Origin: Syntrophomonas sp. DTU018
GTDB lineage: Bacteria > Bacillota > Syntrophomonadia > Syntrophomonadales > Syntrophomonadaceae
DNA length: 44,569 nt
Direction: 5' to 3'
NCBI GenBank assembly: GCA_001513155.1
Contig: LFSR01000008.1
Span: forward strand, 1-44,569
This document shows, one piece after another, positions 3,160 through 17,659 of this stretch (its first letter is position 1; each line of letters opens with the position of its first letter). The notes under the pieces were generated by a model. That model searched no databases, was not told where the DNA came from, and was given only the letters and a program-made list of their open reading frames with translations. A program made the translations under genes and the position numbers.

Positions 3160-4191
3160 CTAAAATGGACTTGCTTTGCCAAAGGAACAGTTGGGATACT
3201 GGCATGACGGGCATCCCAGGCAGAGGCCGCCATGCCCTAGAGCAACTATGTCAGCCTTGGAAATACGTTCACCGGCAAAAATGCGCGGCAATACCAAATC
3301 CAAAGTAGTCACTTTATCGAACAAAGCTCCTCCGGGCACCCCGCAAACCGGGACACGACCCAGGTAAGCCAGCATAAAGTGTGATCCAGGCAGCACAGGA
3401 GCACCATGAAAGACTACTTGAGCGCCGCTAGTACGAATAGCTCGGGGAGTAGCGTCATCGGCATCAACAGACATACCGCCTGTTACCAAAATCAGCTGGG
3501 CTCCCTCAGCTATAAAATTGTGAATCTCTCCAGCTATTAACTCCGCATCATCAGGTACGATGGTTTGTCCCATCCACCTTCCTCCAAAGGTATTTACTTT
3601 CTGGCGCACTACATAGCTGAAACCGTCACGAATTAATCCGCTGTTTACTTCACTGCCGGTAGTAACTACCGCCACCCACAAAGGTTGAAACGGTTTAACT
3701 TCAACCAGAGGTAAGGGCCGGCTGGCCAGATGTTCGGCCTCCAGCAGCAGGTCTTCGTGAATCGCCAGTGGTATTATTCTGGTACCAGCCACAACCTGGT
3801 GTTTGTTAACCACCGAATTGTTGTGCAGGGTAGCAAAAATAATGCCATCGCAGTTGTTAACCCACTGCAGCTGGTTAACTCTGATTTTCAACAAGCCAGG
3901 TATAGCTGCCTGCAAGTTTACCCGGCCTTGATTGGGCGTGCCTATGCTTACCCCGAAACCAGCAGCAGAGCGAGCCAGGCGAACTGCTGCATCATCTTCA
4001 TGAACCAGATGATCCTCAGCTTCCCACACATAAATGTGTTCTTTGCCCAAACTGCGCAGCCGCTCAATATCCTGAGGCTTTATTATATGACCTCGCCGGA
4101 AAGCCCTGCGTTTGACTTTGCCCGGCAATATCTCAGTGATATCGTGTCCCAGGGGTAGGCCTATGGCTTCCTCAATGGCTATCTTACGCAT
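3160..4191 (-). CDS. Molybdopterin-binding (MoeA/Mog-like) protein with cysteine-rich C-terminal tail
   Basis: This 343-residue protein has a central Mog/MoaB-type molybdopterin-binding domain (VVTTGSEV and ILVTGGMSVDADD, close to the MoeA pattern GGxSxGxxD). Its N-terminus (GLPLGHDITEILPG) resembles the start of many MoeA-like proteins, but the full MoeA barrel is missing. It ends in a tail with the pattern CLGCPSCQYPNCSFGK, four closely spaced cysteines that could bind zinc or an iron-sulfur cluster. Its ATG overlaps the fdhA stop by 8 bases, so the two are translationally coupled. A role in delivering or sensing the molybdenum/tungsten cofactor for FdhA is inferred from position; the precise function is unknown. 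Confidence 0.8.
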   Translation of the reverse strand: MRKIAIEEAIGLPLGHDITEILPGKVKRRAFRRGHIIKPQDIERLRSLGKEHIYVWEAEDHLVHEDDAAVRLARSAAGFGVSIGTPNQGRVNLQAAIPGLLKIRVNQLQWVNNCDGIIFATLHNNSVVNKHQVVAGTRIIPLAIHEDLLLEAEHLASRPLPLVEVKPFQPLWVAVVTTGSEVNSGLIRDGFSYVVRQKVNTFGGRWMGQTIVPDDAELIAGEIHNFIAEGAQLILVTGGMSVDADDATPRAIRTSGAQVVFHGAPVLPGSHFMLAYLGRVPVCGVPGGALFDKVTTLDLVLPRIFAGERISKADIVALGHGGLCLGCPSCQYPNCSFGKASPF

Positions 4192-6889
4192 TGGCAGCCT
4201 CCGGCAATTTCTCTATTCTGACCGCACACACCTTGTATTCACCAGTTCCGGTGGTGGGATCCAAAGCATCGCTGGTCAAAGCATTGGTAGGAGTAGCCGA
4301 GTGATGGAAGGACATCCATATCATGCCCGGCTGCACCCGCTCCGTTACCTTAACAGCAGAAATAACTTCTCCACGCCGGGATACAATCTTCACTTGCTGC
4401 CCTGTTTCCAATCCTAATCTCTCTGCATCCTCCGGATGGATCTCCGCCATTTCTTTGTCCCACAGCTCGGCTATACCGGATGAATAGGGAGTAGTAACAT
4501 TGTAATGATACAGAATACGTCCCGTCGACAGCAAGAATGGGTACTCTCTATCCGGCATCTCTGCAGGCGGTACATGATCGGCCGGCTGGAACAAGCCTAG
4601 GCCGCGAGTAAATTTGCCCTTATGCAGGTAAGGAGTTCCCGGGTGATCATCAGTGGTACACGGCCATTGCAGAGATCCTTTCTCCAGGCGATTGTAATTA
4701 ATACCTGCCATAGAGGGAGTTAAAGAGGCCATCTCATCCCATATCTCACTGGGATGTTCGTAATGCATGGGGAATCCTACCCGGGTTGCCATCTGGCAAA
4801 TAGTCTGCCAGTTAGCCTGACCGGGGATAGGTTCGATAGCTTTACGTACCCTTTGTACCCGCCGTTCTGTGTTGGTAAAGGTTCCGTCACATTCAGCAAA
4901 ACTGGCGGCCGGCAGGATTACATCGGCATATTCAGCTGTTTCAGTCAGGAACAGCTCCTGGACTACCAAAAACTCAAGCTTCTCCAGGGCAGCACGAACA
5001 TGATTGGCATTAGGATCGGTCAGCACCGGATTTTCGCCTAGAATATACATGGCTTTGACCTTACCCTCATGGGCTGCATCGAACATTTCCGGAATCTTCA
5101 AGCCCACTTTGGGTGAAAGAGATACTCCCCAGGCCTTTTCAAACTTCTCGCGAATTTCGTCATTAGTAACCGCTTGATAACCGGGATAAACATTGGGCAG
5201 AGCGCCCATATCGCAGGCACCCTGTACGTTGTTCTGGCCGCGCATGGGGCATACACCGGTTCCAGGACGTCCCAAATGTCCGGTCAACATGGCCAGATTA
5301 GCAATACTCATAACATTGCGGGTCCCACAGATATGCTCGGTGATACCCAGGGTATAGAATATCATGGCTTTATCAGTGGTAGCATAGAGGCGAGCCACTG
5401 CATACAGGTCTTCCACCGGGACTCCCGTCAATTCCGAGACATATTCAGGGGTATATCTTTCCACAGTTTCTTTAAGAGCTTCATAATTTTCGGTACGTTC
5501 GGCAATGAACTCTTTATCCTCTAAACCTTCTTTAATAATGATGTGCATCAAGCCATTCAAGAGGGGAATGTCGGTACCGGGTTTAATCTGCAGCCAGTAA
5601 TCTGCTTCATCCACCAGATCAATTCGGCGGGGATCACAGACAATCATCTTGGCTCCCCGGCGAGCCGCCTGGCGCATTTTGTACCCGATCACTGGGTGGG
5701 CTTCAGTGGCATTGGTTCCAATCAAGAACAGAAGTTCTGCTTCTTCCGTGATTTCATTAATGGGATTGGTCATAGCGCCGCTTCCGAAAGTTGTGGCCAG
5801 ACCGGCCACAGTGGGCGCGTGTCAGGTACGGGCACAATGGTCTACATTGTTTGTGCCCATATAGGCCCGGGTAAATTTCTGCACCAAATAGTTTTCCTCA
5901 TTGGTACAACGGGCCGAACTTAATGCCGCAAAGGAATCAGGACCATATTTTTCCTTGATGCTGTTAAATTTCTCGGCAATTAAATCAAATGCCTCATCCT
6001 AGGTTGCTTCCACGAACTGGCCATCCTTTTTAATCAAGGGGGTGGTAAGACGTTTTTCATTATAGATGAAATCCCAGGCAAAACGTCCCTTTACGCACAG
6101 CATACGCCCGTTCACGGGAGCATCCTCAGCGGAAAGAACCCCTATGATTCTGCCATCTTTTACAGCCAGATCAAAATTACATCCCGTTCCGCAAAACGGG
6201 CAAGTGGTACGGACTTTTTCCATCTCCCACCGTCTGGCTTGTCCGGCCATAGACTTCTCTGTTAAAGCACCGGTGGGACATACGGCTACACATTGACCGC
6301 AAAACACACAGTCTGACTCGATATAAGGCACATCTCCTGCAGTAGTCGCCTTGCGGTGAAAACCACGGTAGAGATAGGATAGATTATCCTGACCCGTCAT
6401 TTCTTCACAGGCCCGTACACAGGCACCGCAAAGAATACATTTGTTTAGATCTCTGATTATAAAGGGATTGCTGTCGTCGATAGCATAATGGTGTTTTTCC
6501 CCTGTGAATGGACTATCTTTCACATTATACCGATAACAATACTCCGCCAATTTGCAGTCTCCCATTTTGTCACAGGTCATGCAGTCCAGGGGATGATTGG
6601 CTACCAGAAGTTCCAGTATGGTTTTGCGCGCTTCTACAACAGACGGAGACTCAGTCTCCACTACCATACCTTCCGTCACCGGAGTGACACAGGCAGCTGG
6701 TAAGAGACGGTTGCCTTTTACCTCCACCACGCATAAACGACAGGCTCCCATCGGACTCAAATCAGGATCGTAACACAGGCGAGGAATGTCTACGCCTATC
6801 ATTTCTGCAGCCTCTAGTATAGTGCTGCCTACCGGGGCTTCAACCTCCTTTCCGTTAATAGTCAGCTTTACCCTCTGCAAATCCACCAC
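4184..6889 (-). CDS. fdhA: Formate dehydrogenase catalytic subunit, selenoprotein, interrupted by in-frame amber codon
   Basis: Read through, this frame gives 901 codons. In order: a [2Fe-2S] ferredoxin domain (about 5-80), a NuoG-like His/Cys cluster (HPLDCMTCDKMGDC), two [4Fe-4S] motifs (CILCGACVRAC, CVFCGQCVAVCP), the catalytic-domain cluster (CPFCGTGC), then the molybdopterin oxidoreductase domains. Codon 356 is TGA (5822-5824) in the context CART-U-HAPTVAGL, the selenocysteine position of FdhF-type enzymes. Codon 297 is TAG (5999-6001) in VEAT-x-DEAF, where relatives have tryptophan (TGG); no in-frame start with good spacing follows it closely. Start choice is loose: GTG at 6889 and 6886 lie very near AGGAG, and a TTG at 6880 has better spacing. 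The enzyme should oxidise formate or reduce CO2 with a Mo/W cofactor and exchange electrons with the NuoEF-like subunits. Confidence 0.9.
5792..5824 (-). promoter_or_regulatory. Bacterial SECIS element of fdhA with its UGA codon
   Basis: Immediately downstream of the TGA (5822-5824) the transcript can form a perfect 7-bp hairpin, UGUGGCC-GGUCU-GGCCACA (5792-5810). The loop begins 18 bases after the UGA and is GGUCU, which as I recall is the same as in the E. coli fdhF SECIS. Distance, stem length and leading G residues fit the known bacterial SECIS pattern recognised by SelB. Confidence 0.9.
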
Positions 6890-6924: not shown

Positions 6925-6951
6925 AAAAGACTCCTGCCTGGACAGGAGTCT
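6925..6951 (-). terminator. Intrinsic terminator in the fdhA leader (likely riboswitch expression platform)
   Basis: The minus-strand transcript forms a perfect 9-bp stem AGACTCCTG / CAGGAGTCT with a 6-base loop, followed by a short U-run. It lies about 35 bases before fdhA and directly after the folded region at 6960-7090, the usual place for an on/off attenuator. Termination strength is uncertain because the U-run is only about four bases. Confidence 0.7.
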
Positions 6952-6959
6952 CCATATCA

Positions 6960-7090
6960 TATCCAACCGGGAATGGTATCCCGTAATAGTGACAAGCTCC
7001 TTTCCAAAACACGGGAGGCACACCCGTTTCCGGATATACCCTAACGGTCACATAACCTTGGCTTAAGCTTTAGGTTGATGTGACTCAGAG
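6960..7090 (-). promoter_or_regulatory. Candidate molybdenum/tungsten cofactor (Moco/Tuco) riboswitch
   Basis: The leader RNA is rich in nested stems: a GTCACAT...ATGTGAC arm (7047-7084) extended by AACCT/AGGTT, a CCTCCC ... GGAAAGGAG arm (about 6997-7018), and CGGGA TACCAT TCCCG (6968-6983). The paired CCTCC/GGAAAGGAG block resembles what I remember of the Moco RNA motif, and the downstream gene encodes a Mo/W-cofactor enzyme followed by two MoeA-type genes. A terminator follows at once. The class assignment rests on memory and context and needs a covariance-model search. Confidence 0.6.
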
Positions 7091-7266
7091 CTATTTAATT
7101 ATGTATGAATACCCTTTTCTAGCGCCGACCGCTGTCAGCCTGTCCCCTCTGCTGTCAAAGGGTGGAACGAAACCGCAAACATAATATTCCGGGTCTCTCT
7201 GGTGCTCCGGGGAAATACAAGTGTCTTTCTGTATGAATAACTTAATGCTCAATTGCTTTTTGCACG

Positions 7267-7297
7267 AAAAAAGCACAACTCGACCTCCCGAGCTTGT
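7267..7297 (-). terminator. Intrinsic terminator after the conserved leader element of the fdh operon
   Basis: On the minus strand ACAAGCTCG pairs with CGAGTTGT (one bulged G) around the loop GGAGGT, and is followed by G then CTTTTTT. It lies about 20 bases downstream of the conserved element at 7316-7350, the same order as in the hydrogenase leader. Function as an attenuator is inferred. Confidence 0.65.
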
Positions 7298-7315
7298 CTC
7301 CCCCAATAGCAAAGG

Positions 7316-7350
7316 AATCTTCAAGGAATCGTTTCCGCTGTACTGTCACT
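7316..7350 (-). promoter_or_regulatory. Conserved leader element, fdh copy
   Basis: The minus strand reads AGTGACAGTACAGCGGAAA followed by CGATTCCTTGAAGATT. The hydrogenase leader (17253-17288) carries AGTGGCGGTACAACGAAAA followed by a similar TCC-x-TGAAG block. The 19-base cores differ at only a few positions, mostly purine-for-purine changes. Both copies precede a terminator. It may be part of a regulatory RNA or a protein-binding site; I do not recognise the class. Confidence 0.5.
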
Positions 7351-7405
7351 GAGCATTCTCCACCAACAATCCTGCAAAACGCTTTATTATTGATAAGGTT
7401 GCTCA

Positions 7406-7434: not shown

Positions 7435-7732
7435 TATGCTCTTTTTTGTCTATTCATGTTTGATCATGATGTTTTTATATTTATAACCTTTATGCTAGCT
7501 ATAAAGCAAATTTACCGCTACCTGACCAGATGTACATTCCCAATCGTCACTGATTTTTCGAGCGTTTTTGTTTAATATCTTCTTTTTTGGCATAGACTTA
7601 TCTTTCGCTTAATATAACTTTTAATTATTATTATTATTAAAACATGTAATATCTTGCCAAGGTTTTGTCAATAACAATCGAAATTTTTTGTGTTAATCCC
7701 AAAGCCTTACTAATGTGAATTTTCTTAGACCT

Positions 7733-14545: not shown

Positions 14546-15988
14546 TTAACCGACCTGGCATCTACTGATGGTCTTCTTATCAGGAGTCATAACGTGTATA
14601 GCACAGGCCAGACAGGGGTCAAAGGAACGGATAACCCGTACCACTTCAATGGGATTATTAGGATCCGCCACGGGAGTTCCTATTAAGGCTTGCTCCATGG
14701 GACCCATTTGATCCTGGTCATCCCGCGGGGACAGGTTCCAAGTAGTGGGTACTATGGCATTGTAAATAGCAGTACGCTGGTGTTCGATACGATTCCAGTG
14801 ACCCAGAGCACCGCGTGGAGCCTCAGTTAAACCTACACCCTGGGCAGAACTCGGTATCTTATGAGGAGTACATACCGGTTGCCCGATTTCCAATTGCTGT
14901 ACCCATTCCGCCAAATTCTTGGCAACCAAAGAGCATTCCAGAGCCCGGGCCAAATGACGGCCCAGTACGGAGAAGGCTTTCTCGCCCAAGGAAGTGATGG
15001 TCTCGTCACCCATCACATACATACGGGCCAGAGGACCTACTTCCATAGGTGCACCATTATAGCGAGGTGCTTTAATAAACGAATAAGCATTTTTCTTGGC
15101 AGGGTTGGGTTTAACCACTGCTTCAGTGGGTTTCTTTCCGCCGGTGTCGTCTTCATACCAGGAATACTTAACTGCTTCATCAATTACTTCGATGTCTAAA
15201 TCAGCTAATTGACCATTCACATAGACCTTGGAGGGGAAGAGCTTATTCTTCTTTACATGATCCATGCCCTCTTCCAGCGGGAAAGCTCCGTAAGACAAGA
15301 AATTCATGCAGCCCCGGCCGATATCCCAGTAATCAGGATAGACTTCAGCCACAGCTTTAACGGTGGGGATGTATTCATTATCAATAAATGCCTGCAGTTC
15401 CTGTAATCTAAACAGGAACTCAGCAATCTTCTGGCTGTCAGGAACCTCAGAGACACCTCCAGGTACAATAGCCTGCTGGTGAGGCATTTTACCGCCCCAC
15501 AAAGCCACCATTTCATGGGCTTTGCGCCGCATCTGCAATGCTTTCAGGTAGGTGCCTACAACCTGCTGATTCACATCGTCCGGGAACCGGTAGTCACCCT
15601 CATAGCGAGGAGTAAAGGGCGGCATGTCCGGACCTTTAACATAATCCAGGGCAGCTAAATGGAAAAAGTGCAGAATATGGGACTGGATGTAATTGGATCC
15701 TAAGATCAGGTTGCGAATAATGCGCCCATTGGGAGGCGGTTCAATTCCAAAAGCGTTGTCCAAAGCCAGCGAACCCGCGCTAGCATGAGCTACCGGTCAA
15801 ACGCCGCAGATGCGCTGCATCAGTTGAGCGGCATCCCGCGGATCTCTCCCTTTCATTATTAATTCCAAGCCTCGGAACATCATGCCCATGGATTTGGCAT
15901 TGACTACCCTACCACCATCAACTTCCACTTCAACAGCTAGGTGTCCTTCGATTCTGGTTACGGGATCTATTATTATCGTCTGGGCCAT
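14546..15988 (-). CDS. [NiFe] hydrogenase large subunit with in-frame UGA (probable selenocysteine 64)
   Basis: The 480-residue catalytic subunit starts [17 protein letters not shown]. The N-terminal nickel motif reads RICGV-x-PVAHASAG, where x is codon 64, TGA (15797-15799), instead of the expected cysteine. The frame continues intact to the C-terminal motif DPCLACAIH followed by a VMTPDKK extension for the maturation protease. A SECIS-like hairpin sits right behind the TGA. In known NiFeSe enzymes selenocysteine replaces the first cysteine of the C-terminal motif; here that residue is cysteine and the changed position is the bridging cysteine of the N-terminal pair. Overall it is a group-1-like enzyme. 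The ATG overlaps the small-subunit stop by one base (TAATG). A nonsense mutation is the alternative reading. Confidence 0.93.
15765..15799 (-). promoter_or_regulatory. Candidate SECIS element of the hydrogenase large subunit
   Basis: After the TGA (15797-15799) and 12 unpaired bases the transcript can form GCUAGCG-CGGGUU-CGCUGGC (15765-15784), a 7-bp stem with one G-U pair. The loop starts 19 bases after the UGA and has G residues near its 5' side. Position and size fit bacterial SECIS rules. The loop begins with C rather than GG, so the match is weaker than that of the fdhA element. Confidence 0.6.
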
Positions 15989-17049
15989 TATTCGTCACCT
16001 TCTTTCTCATCTTGATTCTTTTTGGGCCCGATACGGCCTGTCATGATATTTCCAGCCAAATGACCTCCGATTCCCAGTACAGCTAAGCCTGCAAGTACAC
16101 CGCCAATCTGGTCTACAGTAGCAGTGATACCAGGAGCAACCGGCAGTTCCGGTAAGCGTTCATAGATCGGCCAGGCCGGGAACTGGGGTTCTGTACAGGC
16201 GATACAAACTCCTCCTGCTTTTACGCACCAATTGGTGCCGCCGTTCCACAGACGAGTAGTAGAATCACAATGAGCAAAGGGACCTTTGCAGCCCAATTCC
16301 AGCATGCAGCCCGGCTCACCAAAGTTCTTGGCAAAAATCGCATTGTCAAAGTACTGGCGACGCTGGCAGTTATCATGAATTATCTTGTCGAAGAACATGG
16401 TAGGACGTCCGAAAGCATCCAGTTCGGGCAGTTCGTTGTAAAGGATAACATGGGCTATGGTACCTACCATCCAATCAGGATGAGGCGGACAACCCGGTAC
16501 GTTTACGATAGGCACATTCTTAACTATGTCTTTGACAGGCTTGCAGTCCGTGGGATTAGGCGGTGTGGCCGGGAAGCCTCCAAAGGCAGAACAGGTACCG
16601 AAATTCAAAATGCCTGCTGCCTGGCTGCCCAGTTCCTGTACTGCTTTCAGGAAAGTCAGGTGATGTCCATTCCGCTCACCAATAATGCAATAGACCCCAT
16701 CATCGGCAACCGGGACAGCACCCTCTACAACCAGGAAAAACTTCTTGGGATTCTCGGCGGCAACCTTATACATTTCCTCAATGACAAGATTGCCTGCTCC
16801 TGCGGCTAGATTGGGATGATAGCGCAGGCTGATGACTTCCGTGATAACTTTTTCAATATCCGGATGAACAGTGTTTAAAATGGAGATAGAACAACCAGTG
16901 CAACTGCCTCCCTGTATCCATAATACCGGAGGCCCTCCGGCAGCAGCTGCTTCCTTAATAAAAGGTGCCAAGTACCCGGATAAGGATATAGCTGCGGCTG
17001 AGCCGGCACAGAGACGTAGAAAGTCACGCCGTGACAGCTTAGTTGGCAT
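15988..17049 (-). CDS. [NiFe] hydrogenase small subunit, Tat-exported and membrane-anchored
   Basis: This 353-residue subunit carries the iron-sulfur relay. The N-terminus SRRDFLRL (residues 6-13) followed by a hydrophobic stretch and AAAAGG is a Tat signal, so the folded dimer should be exported to the outer face of the membrane. Cluster ligands lie in [58 protein letters not shown] and [15 protein letters not shown]-terminal hydrophobic helix (about 315-340) then a charged tail form the membrane anchor typical of quinone-linked group 1 enzymes. It is first in the operon, preceded by GGGGGGAATGAGG, and its stop overlaps the large-subunit ATG. Confidence 0.95.
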
Positions 17050-17200: not shown

Positions 17201-17229
17201 AAAAAAAGCAAGGCACGATAAGCCTAGCT
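17201..17229 (-). terminator. Intrinsic terminator in the hydrogenase leader
   Basis: On the minus strand AGCTAGGC pairs with GCCTTGCT (one mismatch) around a 7-base loop and runs into seven T. It lies about 150 bases before the small-subunit gene and just after the conserved element at 17253-17288, suggesting attenuation of the hydrogenase operon. It is also over 400 bases past the cbiO stop, too far to be the natural end of that operon. Confidence 0.7.
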
Positions 17230-17252
17230 TGGCCAACTCACTTGGCGTGCGC

Positions 17253-17288
17253 ATCCTTCATGGACACGCTTTTCGTTGTACCGCCACT
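17253..17288 (-). promoter_or_regulatory. Conserved leader element, hydrogenase copy
   Basis: The minus strand reads AGTGGCGGTACAACGAAAA then GCGTGTCCATGAAGGAT. Flanking GTGCG and CGCAC (immediately outside) can pair, enclosing the element in a stem, with TCC/GGA as a small inner hairpin. It matches the fdh-leader copy at 7316-7350 and, like it, precedes a terminator. I cannot assign it to a known riboswitch class. Confidence 0.5.
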
Positions 17289-17302
17289 ACGCACTTCCCG
17301 CG

Positions 17303-17331
17303 CAAATATGTATGGCATATGATCTTGTCAG
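17303..17331 (-). promoter_or_regulatory. Possible sigma-A promoter of the hydrogenase operon
   Basis: The minus strand has CTGACA (17331-17326), a 17-base spacer and TATTTG (17308-17303). A start just downstream would put the conserved element at the 5' end of the leader RNA. The -10 box is weak. Confidence 0.35.
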
Positions 17332-17659
17332 TTCAACGTCTATTACTGGTGAGGAACATTGAATACAACTAATTTCCAGTTATAGATGTTTCTACATTTA
17401 TACCCTTTCCATGTCTAATAGGCAACTTTCCTGACAACTTTCCAGAATTAAGGGCAGAATGACACCGATATTAATAGTAAATAAACTAATTATATCTCTG
17501 TTTATCTCTTAATTTTAACGGTATTTGATTTTTCCCATTGATAACTCAAATTTATTTATATTATTAATTTCTATTATATTTTGCTGGAAAAATAGCAGCA
17601 GTTTTTTAGTCAGGCCATTTTTCTGACTATATTTGGGTTTGCAGGTTAATTATGGGTTG
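17332..17659. other. AT-rich intergenic stretch between cbiO and the hydrogenase leader
   Basis: No gene is seen here. The stretch is strongly AT-rich, especially 17440-17590, and contains short inverted repeats such as GTCAG/CTGAC near 17609-17628, but no convincing terminator with a U-run on the minus strand after cbiO. Confidence 0.6.

Follow-up and report, generated by a model that had tools for sequence, protein, structure and literature searches.

Regulski et al. (2008, PMC2408646) describe at least 15 Moco RNAs for Syntrophomonas wolfei, as well as tandem and triple arrangements and terminator platforms. The word 'hydrogenase' is absent from the main text of that paper (PMC2408646), and in the literature that was searched we found no mention of such riboswitches before hydrogenase operons, which is not proof of absence.

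Syntrophic butyrate oxidisers hand electrons to their partners as H2 or formate, and to our knowledge the choice between the two routes is an open question. In this work we describe a leader element, X, that lies before both a hydrogenase (hyd) operon and a formate dehydrogenase (fdh) operon in one window, the whole stretch of 44,569 nucleotides that was analysed. This window corresponds to contig C50 of G000, a Syntrophomonas genome of 2.56 Mb. We compare X with the platforms of Moco riboswitches in related genera.

Materials and methods

Two covariance models were used. R1 was built from four copies of X, those before the fdh and hyd operons of G000 and its sister species G004, which match by construction; it was run over 63 genomes of the order, and a search at class level covered the same 63 genomes and gave no further matches. 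R2 was built solely from platforms that lie behind Moco aptamers. Locus L043 is a second contig with the same sequence as L052. The window's genus is represented by few genomes, and G003 is 63% complete.

Results

The relevant genes lie on the minus strand, in the order CbiM/CbiQ/ABC metal-uptake cluster, hydrogenase operon, fdh. The hyd/hyp operon (17049 to 7733) encodes a small subunit, a NiFeSe-type large subunit, cytochrome b, HycI, HypA, HypB, HypF, HypD and HypE; the closest two relatives of the hydrogenase come from one Bacillota MAG and one Syntrophomonas sp. MAG. The two operons are near neighbours: the fdh leader begins immediately 3' of hypE and precedes the genes for FdhA, two MoeA-like proteins and NuoF. 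This leader consists of a promoter-proximal box, X and a Moco riboswitch, in that order, and the hydrogenase leader of the box and X; in the latter a Moco aptamer is lacking even when E values as high as 5 are admitted (Table 1).

Table 1. Features of the two leaders and of the first genes behind them (positions in the window).
Feature	Position	Strand	Basis
X_fdh (P1-like strand, core, P3 region, terminator)	7267..7367	-	R1 85.6 bits, E=3e-16 per genome; among the four sequences that R1 was built from
Core of X_fdh, AGTGACAGTACAGCGGAAA, named in the original prediction	7332..7350	-	sequence
Intrinsic terminator of X_fdh, AAGCTCGG...GTGC-TTTTTT	7267..7295	-	sequence
X_hyd, without Moco aptamer	17202..17306	-	R1 111.5 bits; among the four sequences that R1 was built from
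Core of X_hyd, AGTGGCGGTACAACGAAAA	17270..17288	-	sequence
Intrinsic terminator of X_hyd, AAGCTAGG...CCTTGC-TTTTTT	17202..17230	-	predicted stem probability 0.94
Promoter-proximal box, fdh, AAAGGTTATAAATATAAAAACATC	7468..7491	-	search at up to 2 mismatches
Promoter-proximal box, hyd, AAAGGGTATAAATGTAGAAACATC	17385..17408	-	search at up to 2 mismatches
[NiFe/NiFeSe] hydrogenase small subunit, first gene after X_hyd	15988..17049	-	PF14720, PF01058
Formate dehydrogenase FdhA, NuoG-like N-terminus, after X_fdh and Moco riboswitch	4184..6889	-	TIGR01591, TIGR01973
RF01055 (Moco/W-cofactor riboswitch) of the fdh leader, 3' of X, separate intact unit	6981..7102	-	76.8 bits, E=5.6e-17; 88% identical to G004
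Terminator 3' of the Moco aptamer	6926..6953	-	sequence

Some details of the annotation deserve a comment. The large-subunit gene (HydL) has an in-frame TGA at 15799-15797 (-), within RICGV*PVAHA, which is the Sec codon of the NiFeSe hydrogenase; the start given in the list of open reading frames, 15763, is too late. In FdhA the Sec TGA lies at about 5824-5822 (-), and the frame is open as far as that codon apart from an extra in-frame TAG at 5999-6001 (-), where the G004 orthologue, the sole comparison, has Trp (TGG). This TAG is either a nonsense mutation or a sequence error.

Each leader holds one copy of X, an element of about 103 nt that ends in a terminator with a U6-7 tract. The 19-nt cores are identical at 15 of 19 positions, all four differences are A/G transitions, and both cores are followed, in the same order, by a hairpin and U6-U7. 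The original prediction that the hydrogenase leader has a close counterpart of the fdh element is thus borne out. It was also right that a terminator follows the core, but the distance to the terminator stem is about 37-39 nt, not 'about 20'. An intrinsic terminator is found before the first gene in every strong copy of X.

The similarity of the two leaders reaches well beyond the core. Aligned locally, the two copies of X score 44, compared with 30 for the best of 1000 dinucleotide shuffles. A shared block of about 35 bases with mostly purine-purine differences had been proposed; the differences within the core fit that description, but what is shared is the whole promoter-leader of about 430 nt, whose local alignment scores 91, whereas none of 500 dinucleotide shuffles exceeds 58. 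The promoter regions also align (47 versus 35 for the best of 1000 shuffles), and the spacer between the promoter box and X is similar at chance level only. Because the leader, X and promoter scores exceed their shuffles and the spacer stays at chance, the alignments indicate that the whole promoter-leader was duplicated in the window's genus, with the promoter-proximal DNA box and the RNA element X as two conserved islands.

The 19-nt core alone fails as a specific genome-wide marker. At up to two mismatches across the family, its other matches occur at about the frequency of a reversed-pattern control, and most lie inside long open frames or coding sequence. Within G000, the match on contig C13 has no terminator in the adjoining sequence and looks coding, and the match on C43 has 2 mismatches. 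What speaks for X is the longer element, together with where it lies and how it is conserved, not the 19-mer. None of the other Rfam families (4227 models) matches either copy in the window at E up to 5, and the two copies of G004 are likewise free of Rfam matches when the limit is E 1. We discarded a reading of GUACAGCGGA in the core as a CsrA site (RUACARGGAUGU-like): the cores of the hyd copies lack GGA, as judged by eye.

A covariance search had been proposed as a check on the original prediction, and across the 63 genomes of the order it does return further copies of X before fdh and hyd operons of sister species. Beyond its own four sequences, R1 matches the fdh leader of G003 (E=2.6e-12) and, weakly, the hyd leader of G002 (0.013); with both copies of G004, these are the sister species that carry X. 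The fdh leader of G002 has no X that we could find. Of 398 genomes sampled from the phylum, the window's own reaches E 0.001 and the 397 others do not, with few candidates scored per genome.

The two copies differ in how well they are conserved. Between G000 and G004, identity is 87% in X_hyd, but 55% in the spacer and 66% at fourfold-degenerate sites of hydS. In the fdh leader, X_fdh reaches 64%, about the level of fourfold sites (65%), and the Moco unit 88%. By this comparison X_hyd is evidently under constraint and X_fdh not clearly so; as it evolves near the fourfold rate, the fdh copy of the window is the weaker one. The two hyd copies have the same core, and the cores of the fdh copies resemble it. 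Some letters, compared by eye, differ by paralogue across species (UGCUCAG and GCUCGG in fdh copies; UGCRUAG and GCUAGG in hyd copies), and since they are kept across species the duplication is older than these species.

The origin of X is suggested by its matches in other genera. Outside the window's genus, R1 has weak matches in three genera, every one of them immediately 3' of a match to RF01055, and at most of these loci hypA, hypB and hydS are visible downstream. Conversely, R2, which has matches in 39 of the 63 genomes at E up to 0.1, finds the fdh copy of G004 (E=4.4e-5) and the hyd copies of G004, G000 and G002 (about 0.02; 0.022 for X_hyd of the window), each match overlapping X. R1 and R2 each find the other's set and the boundaries agree, with the hyd copies at E~0.02. 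On these alignments X is not a stand-alone novelty: it is a homologue of the expression platform that lies directly 3' of the Moco/W-cofactor riboswitch (RF01055) before the hypA-hypB-hydS genes of hyp-hydrogenase operons in other, related Syntrophomonadia genera. For the hyd copies the E-values alone make a marginal case for homology, which is supported in addition by position and by the reciprocal boundaries.

The R2 matches themselves have a regular setting. In the 20 loci that were scanned, the best match begins at the 3' end of RF01055 in all except L114, where a higher-scoring copy has a decayed aptamer only. HypA is found downstream on the same strand of most R2 matches; those without it include contig ends, a hypA remnant (L118), an [FeFe]-hydrogenase-like gene (L126), a few weak minus-strand matches and the fdh leader of G004. 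R2 has no match outside the class in the phylum sample.

A few loci are unusual. At L126 (G011:C182) a Moco aptamer and platform lie upstream of the [FeFe]-hydrogenase-like gene, which was named by eye, and at L118 (G037) a Moco-platform leader persists before the apparent hypA remnant, with no hyp genes found downstream. The fdh leader of G048 (L083) has tandem Moco aptamers, two strong and one weak. The contig of L040 (G003:C76) ends in CTGTCTCTTATACACATCT, a Nextera adapter, and the fdh leader there has no Moco match at E up to 2.

The structure of the R2 platforms covaries, with 112 both-side changes compared with 36 in shuffles (in an alignment fitted to the model). Riboswitches that terminate transcription in response to a ligand usually have a P1 3' strand complementary to a terminator arm. 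In the 40 rows of the R2 alignment A7, among them X of the G004 fdh leader, the aptamer P1 3' strand GAGAUGC and the terminator 5' arm/loop GCAUUUC are paired in 94% of cells, compared with 32-57% in slid registers. This pairing is partly kept in X, as AUGCU:GGCAU in the fdh copy of G004; elsewhere it is G-U rich or broken.

What X lacks is the aptamer. In the window, neither X_hyd nor X_fdh is covered by a match to RF01055 with E up to 5, and the hyd leaders of G004 and G002 have no Rfam aptamer, RF01055 included, at E up to 10. A Moco aptamer hidden between the promoter and X was considered and rejected, as the spacer there is unconserved (55%, chance level). Loss of the aptamer with retention of the platform does occur in this family, since G024 has a second platform copy without a detectable aptamer (L110:2296) and G028 a platform with a decayed one (L114:1501).

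X could also be a decaying relic, a partial terminator that became constitutive after the Moco aptamer was lost and lowers expression without sensing anything. The missing aptamer would fit, as would the near-neutral rate of the window's fdh copy, the decay under way in relatives (L110, L114) and the G002 fdh leader in which no X was found. However, a relic would hardly keep X_hyd at 87%, above fourfold sites, retain the core in paralogous fdh and hyd copies of two species, and preserve the 5'-hairpin/terminator alternatives in four of five copies. We consider decay rather unlikely.

The other conserved island, the box, was searched for in eleven genomes; all its matches with up to two mismatches lie before the fdh and hyd operons of G000, G002 and G004. 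The promoter was assigned by eye (TTGCYT-N17/18-TATAAA), and a promoter scan does not list that site. A ModE-like reading of the box was discarded, as the spacing of its half-sites is unlike the consensus.

Control may be shared at the DNA level, by a transcription factor on the box AAAGGTTATAAATGTAGAAACATC, with X carried along by the duplication. In three species the fdh and hyd promoters have almost the same box, which forms a 28-bp near-palindrome in the G002 hyd leader and persists, exactly, in the G002 fdh leader where X was not found. Yet the box could simply be the promoter, and this reading leaves unexplained both why X and its terminator, ~80-100 nt further downstream, are conserved separately and why X is homologous to RNA platforms. 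It is compatible with an attenuator; as the explanation for the shared leaders we hold it possible, although we do not favour it. The original prediction had offered a common regulator, acting through either an RNA or a DNA site. A shared non-coding block with a terminator, kept by sister species, does imply common control, from which we infer co-regulation, but the alternatives are not exclusive: both are plausible, because the duplicated leader has two conserved islands, and the box may add shared control by a DNA-binding protein besides the attenuator.

Discussion

On balance we think it probable that X is a cis-acting, bistable transcription attenuator in the 5' leader RNA. It would descend from the Moco/W platform of hyp-hydrogenase operons, having lost the aptamer and having been duplicated with its leader before fdh. 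If the leader is transcribed through X, as we infer, the RNA would switch between two folds. The OFF state would combine a short 5' hairpin (GCRC...GYGC) with the terminator hairpin, which would stop RNA polymerase. In the ON state both strands of the 5' hairpin would pair with the terminator 5' arm and loop, allowing read-through; in the fdh copy of G004 the predicted pairing is GCACGGU-AA-AUGCU-C-AGU with GCU-C-GGCAU-GUCGUGC. In relatives the GGAG strand would be held by the Moco aptamer once a ligand is bound, and OFF would be favoured. In the window's genus the balance would be set by something else, presumably some signal, perhaps one that binds the conserved core AGUGRCRGUACARCGRAAA.

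We propose an attenuator that works without its former aptamer because the ON arm would exclude the terminator and because the predicted energies are split between the two states. The hyd copies lean OFF and the fdh copies of G004 and G003 lean ON; the lack of a consistent winner also counts against the model, as does the state of the window's own fdh copy. The ON arm has 13-15 of 16 pairs in four copies and 10 of 16 in the fdh copy of the window, which is degenerate (P3 is not formed). Over the five copies of the genus, 81% of the cells of the ON arm are paired, compared with 27-56% in slid registers; there are no both-side changes, as expected from only five copies, and shuffles are not beaten. 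Covariation of the OFF fold is likewise weak in these copies. A different antiterminator, in which the core pairs with the terminator 3' arm, was rejected: helices of 5-8 bp can be drawn in all copies, but their registers differ, so we treat them as chance.

Alternatively, X could be a novel riboswitch, with an aptamer of its own in which P0/P2-like stems enclose the core and a ligand relevant to H2 and formate metabolism. The conservation of the core noted above could be read in this way, as could the predicted closed domain that abuts the terminator and the occurrence of X alone upstream of hyd. But the P0/P2-like pairs are inconsistent across the five copies, and an element confined to one genus would be very young for a riboswitch class, which makes this reading improbable.

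Returning to the attenuator, selenium had been suggested as a signal, and this found no support: X has no match to a SECIS model, and the related platform (X') precedes hyp operons generally. No SECIS-like structure lies within the shared block; the sole SECIS_3-like match, at 5769-5827, is in the fdhA coding region and below the gathering score. Nothing found ties X to selenium, and formate, H2 or redox state as signals are guesses.

The setting of the platforms in related genera is of wider interest. Moco/W-cofactor riboswitches are found before hypA-hypB-NiFe(Se)-hydrogenase operons in many Syntrophomonadia genera, some of them in tandem (L110, L112-L128 and others). A Ni-dependent hydrogenase does not use the Mo/W cofactor. 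A riboswitch for this cofactor, with its platform, before such an operon suggests a rule across the Syntrophomonadia, under which hydrogenase expression is set by how much cofactor is supplied for formate dehydrogenase.

In the window's genus, a platform without an aptamer that has been copied to fdh may be a riboswitch platform re-wired to a new input, and the two outlets for surplus electrons, H2 and formate, may be controlled together via sister copies of one leader. It is a more speculative step, and one that we think unlikely, that X has turned from a metal-cofactor riboswitch platform into an autonomous sensor (a new RNA aptamer or a protein target) that couples the two outlets and, with the downstream Moco riboswitch, makes a two-input tandem gate on formate dehydrogenase.

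As a general class, protein- or RNA-dependent 5'-leader attenuators resemble X in their combination of a terminator with a predicted, mutually exclusive pairing; X differs in having no assigned trans factor. With the Moco/Tuco riboswitch (RF01055; PMC2408646) in the hyp-hydrogenase leaders of related genera, X shares a 5' strand (GGAGAUGCUCAGU-like), a terminator (GCUCGGCAU.UCGUGCC) and the position before the operon. It differs from these riboswitches in the window's genus, where it has no Moco aptamer joined to it, a new core sequence and a changed first antiterminator strand; the Moco riboswitch of the fdh leader stands apart, as a unit of its own 3' of X. Although its first unit, X, has no recognised aptamer, the fdh leader is built like the tandem riboswitch leaders, for example the triple Moco RNAs of Syntrophomonas wolfei (PMC2408646), with X and then the Moco riboswitch each followed by its own terminator.
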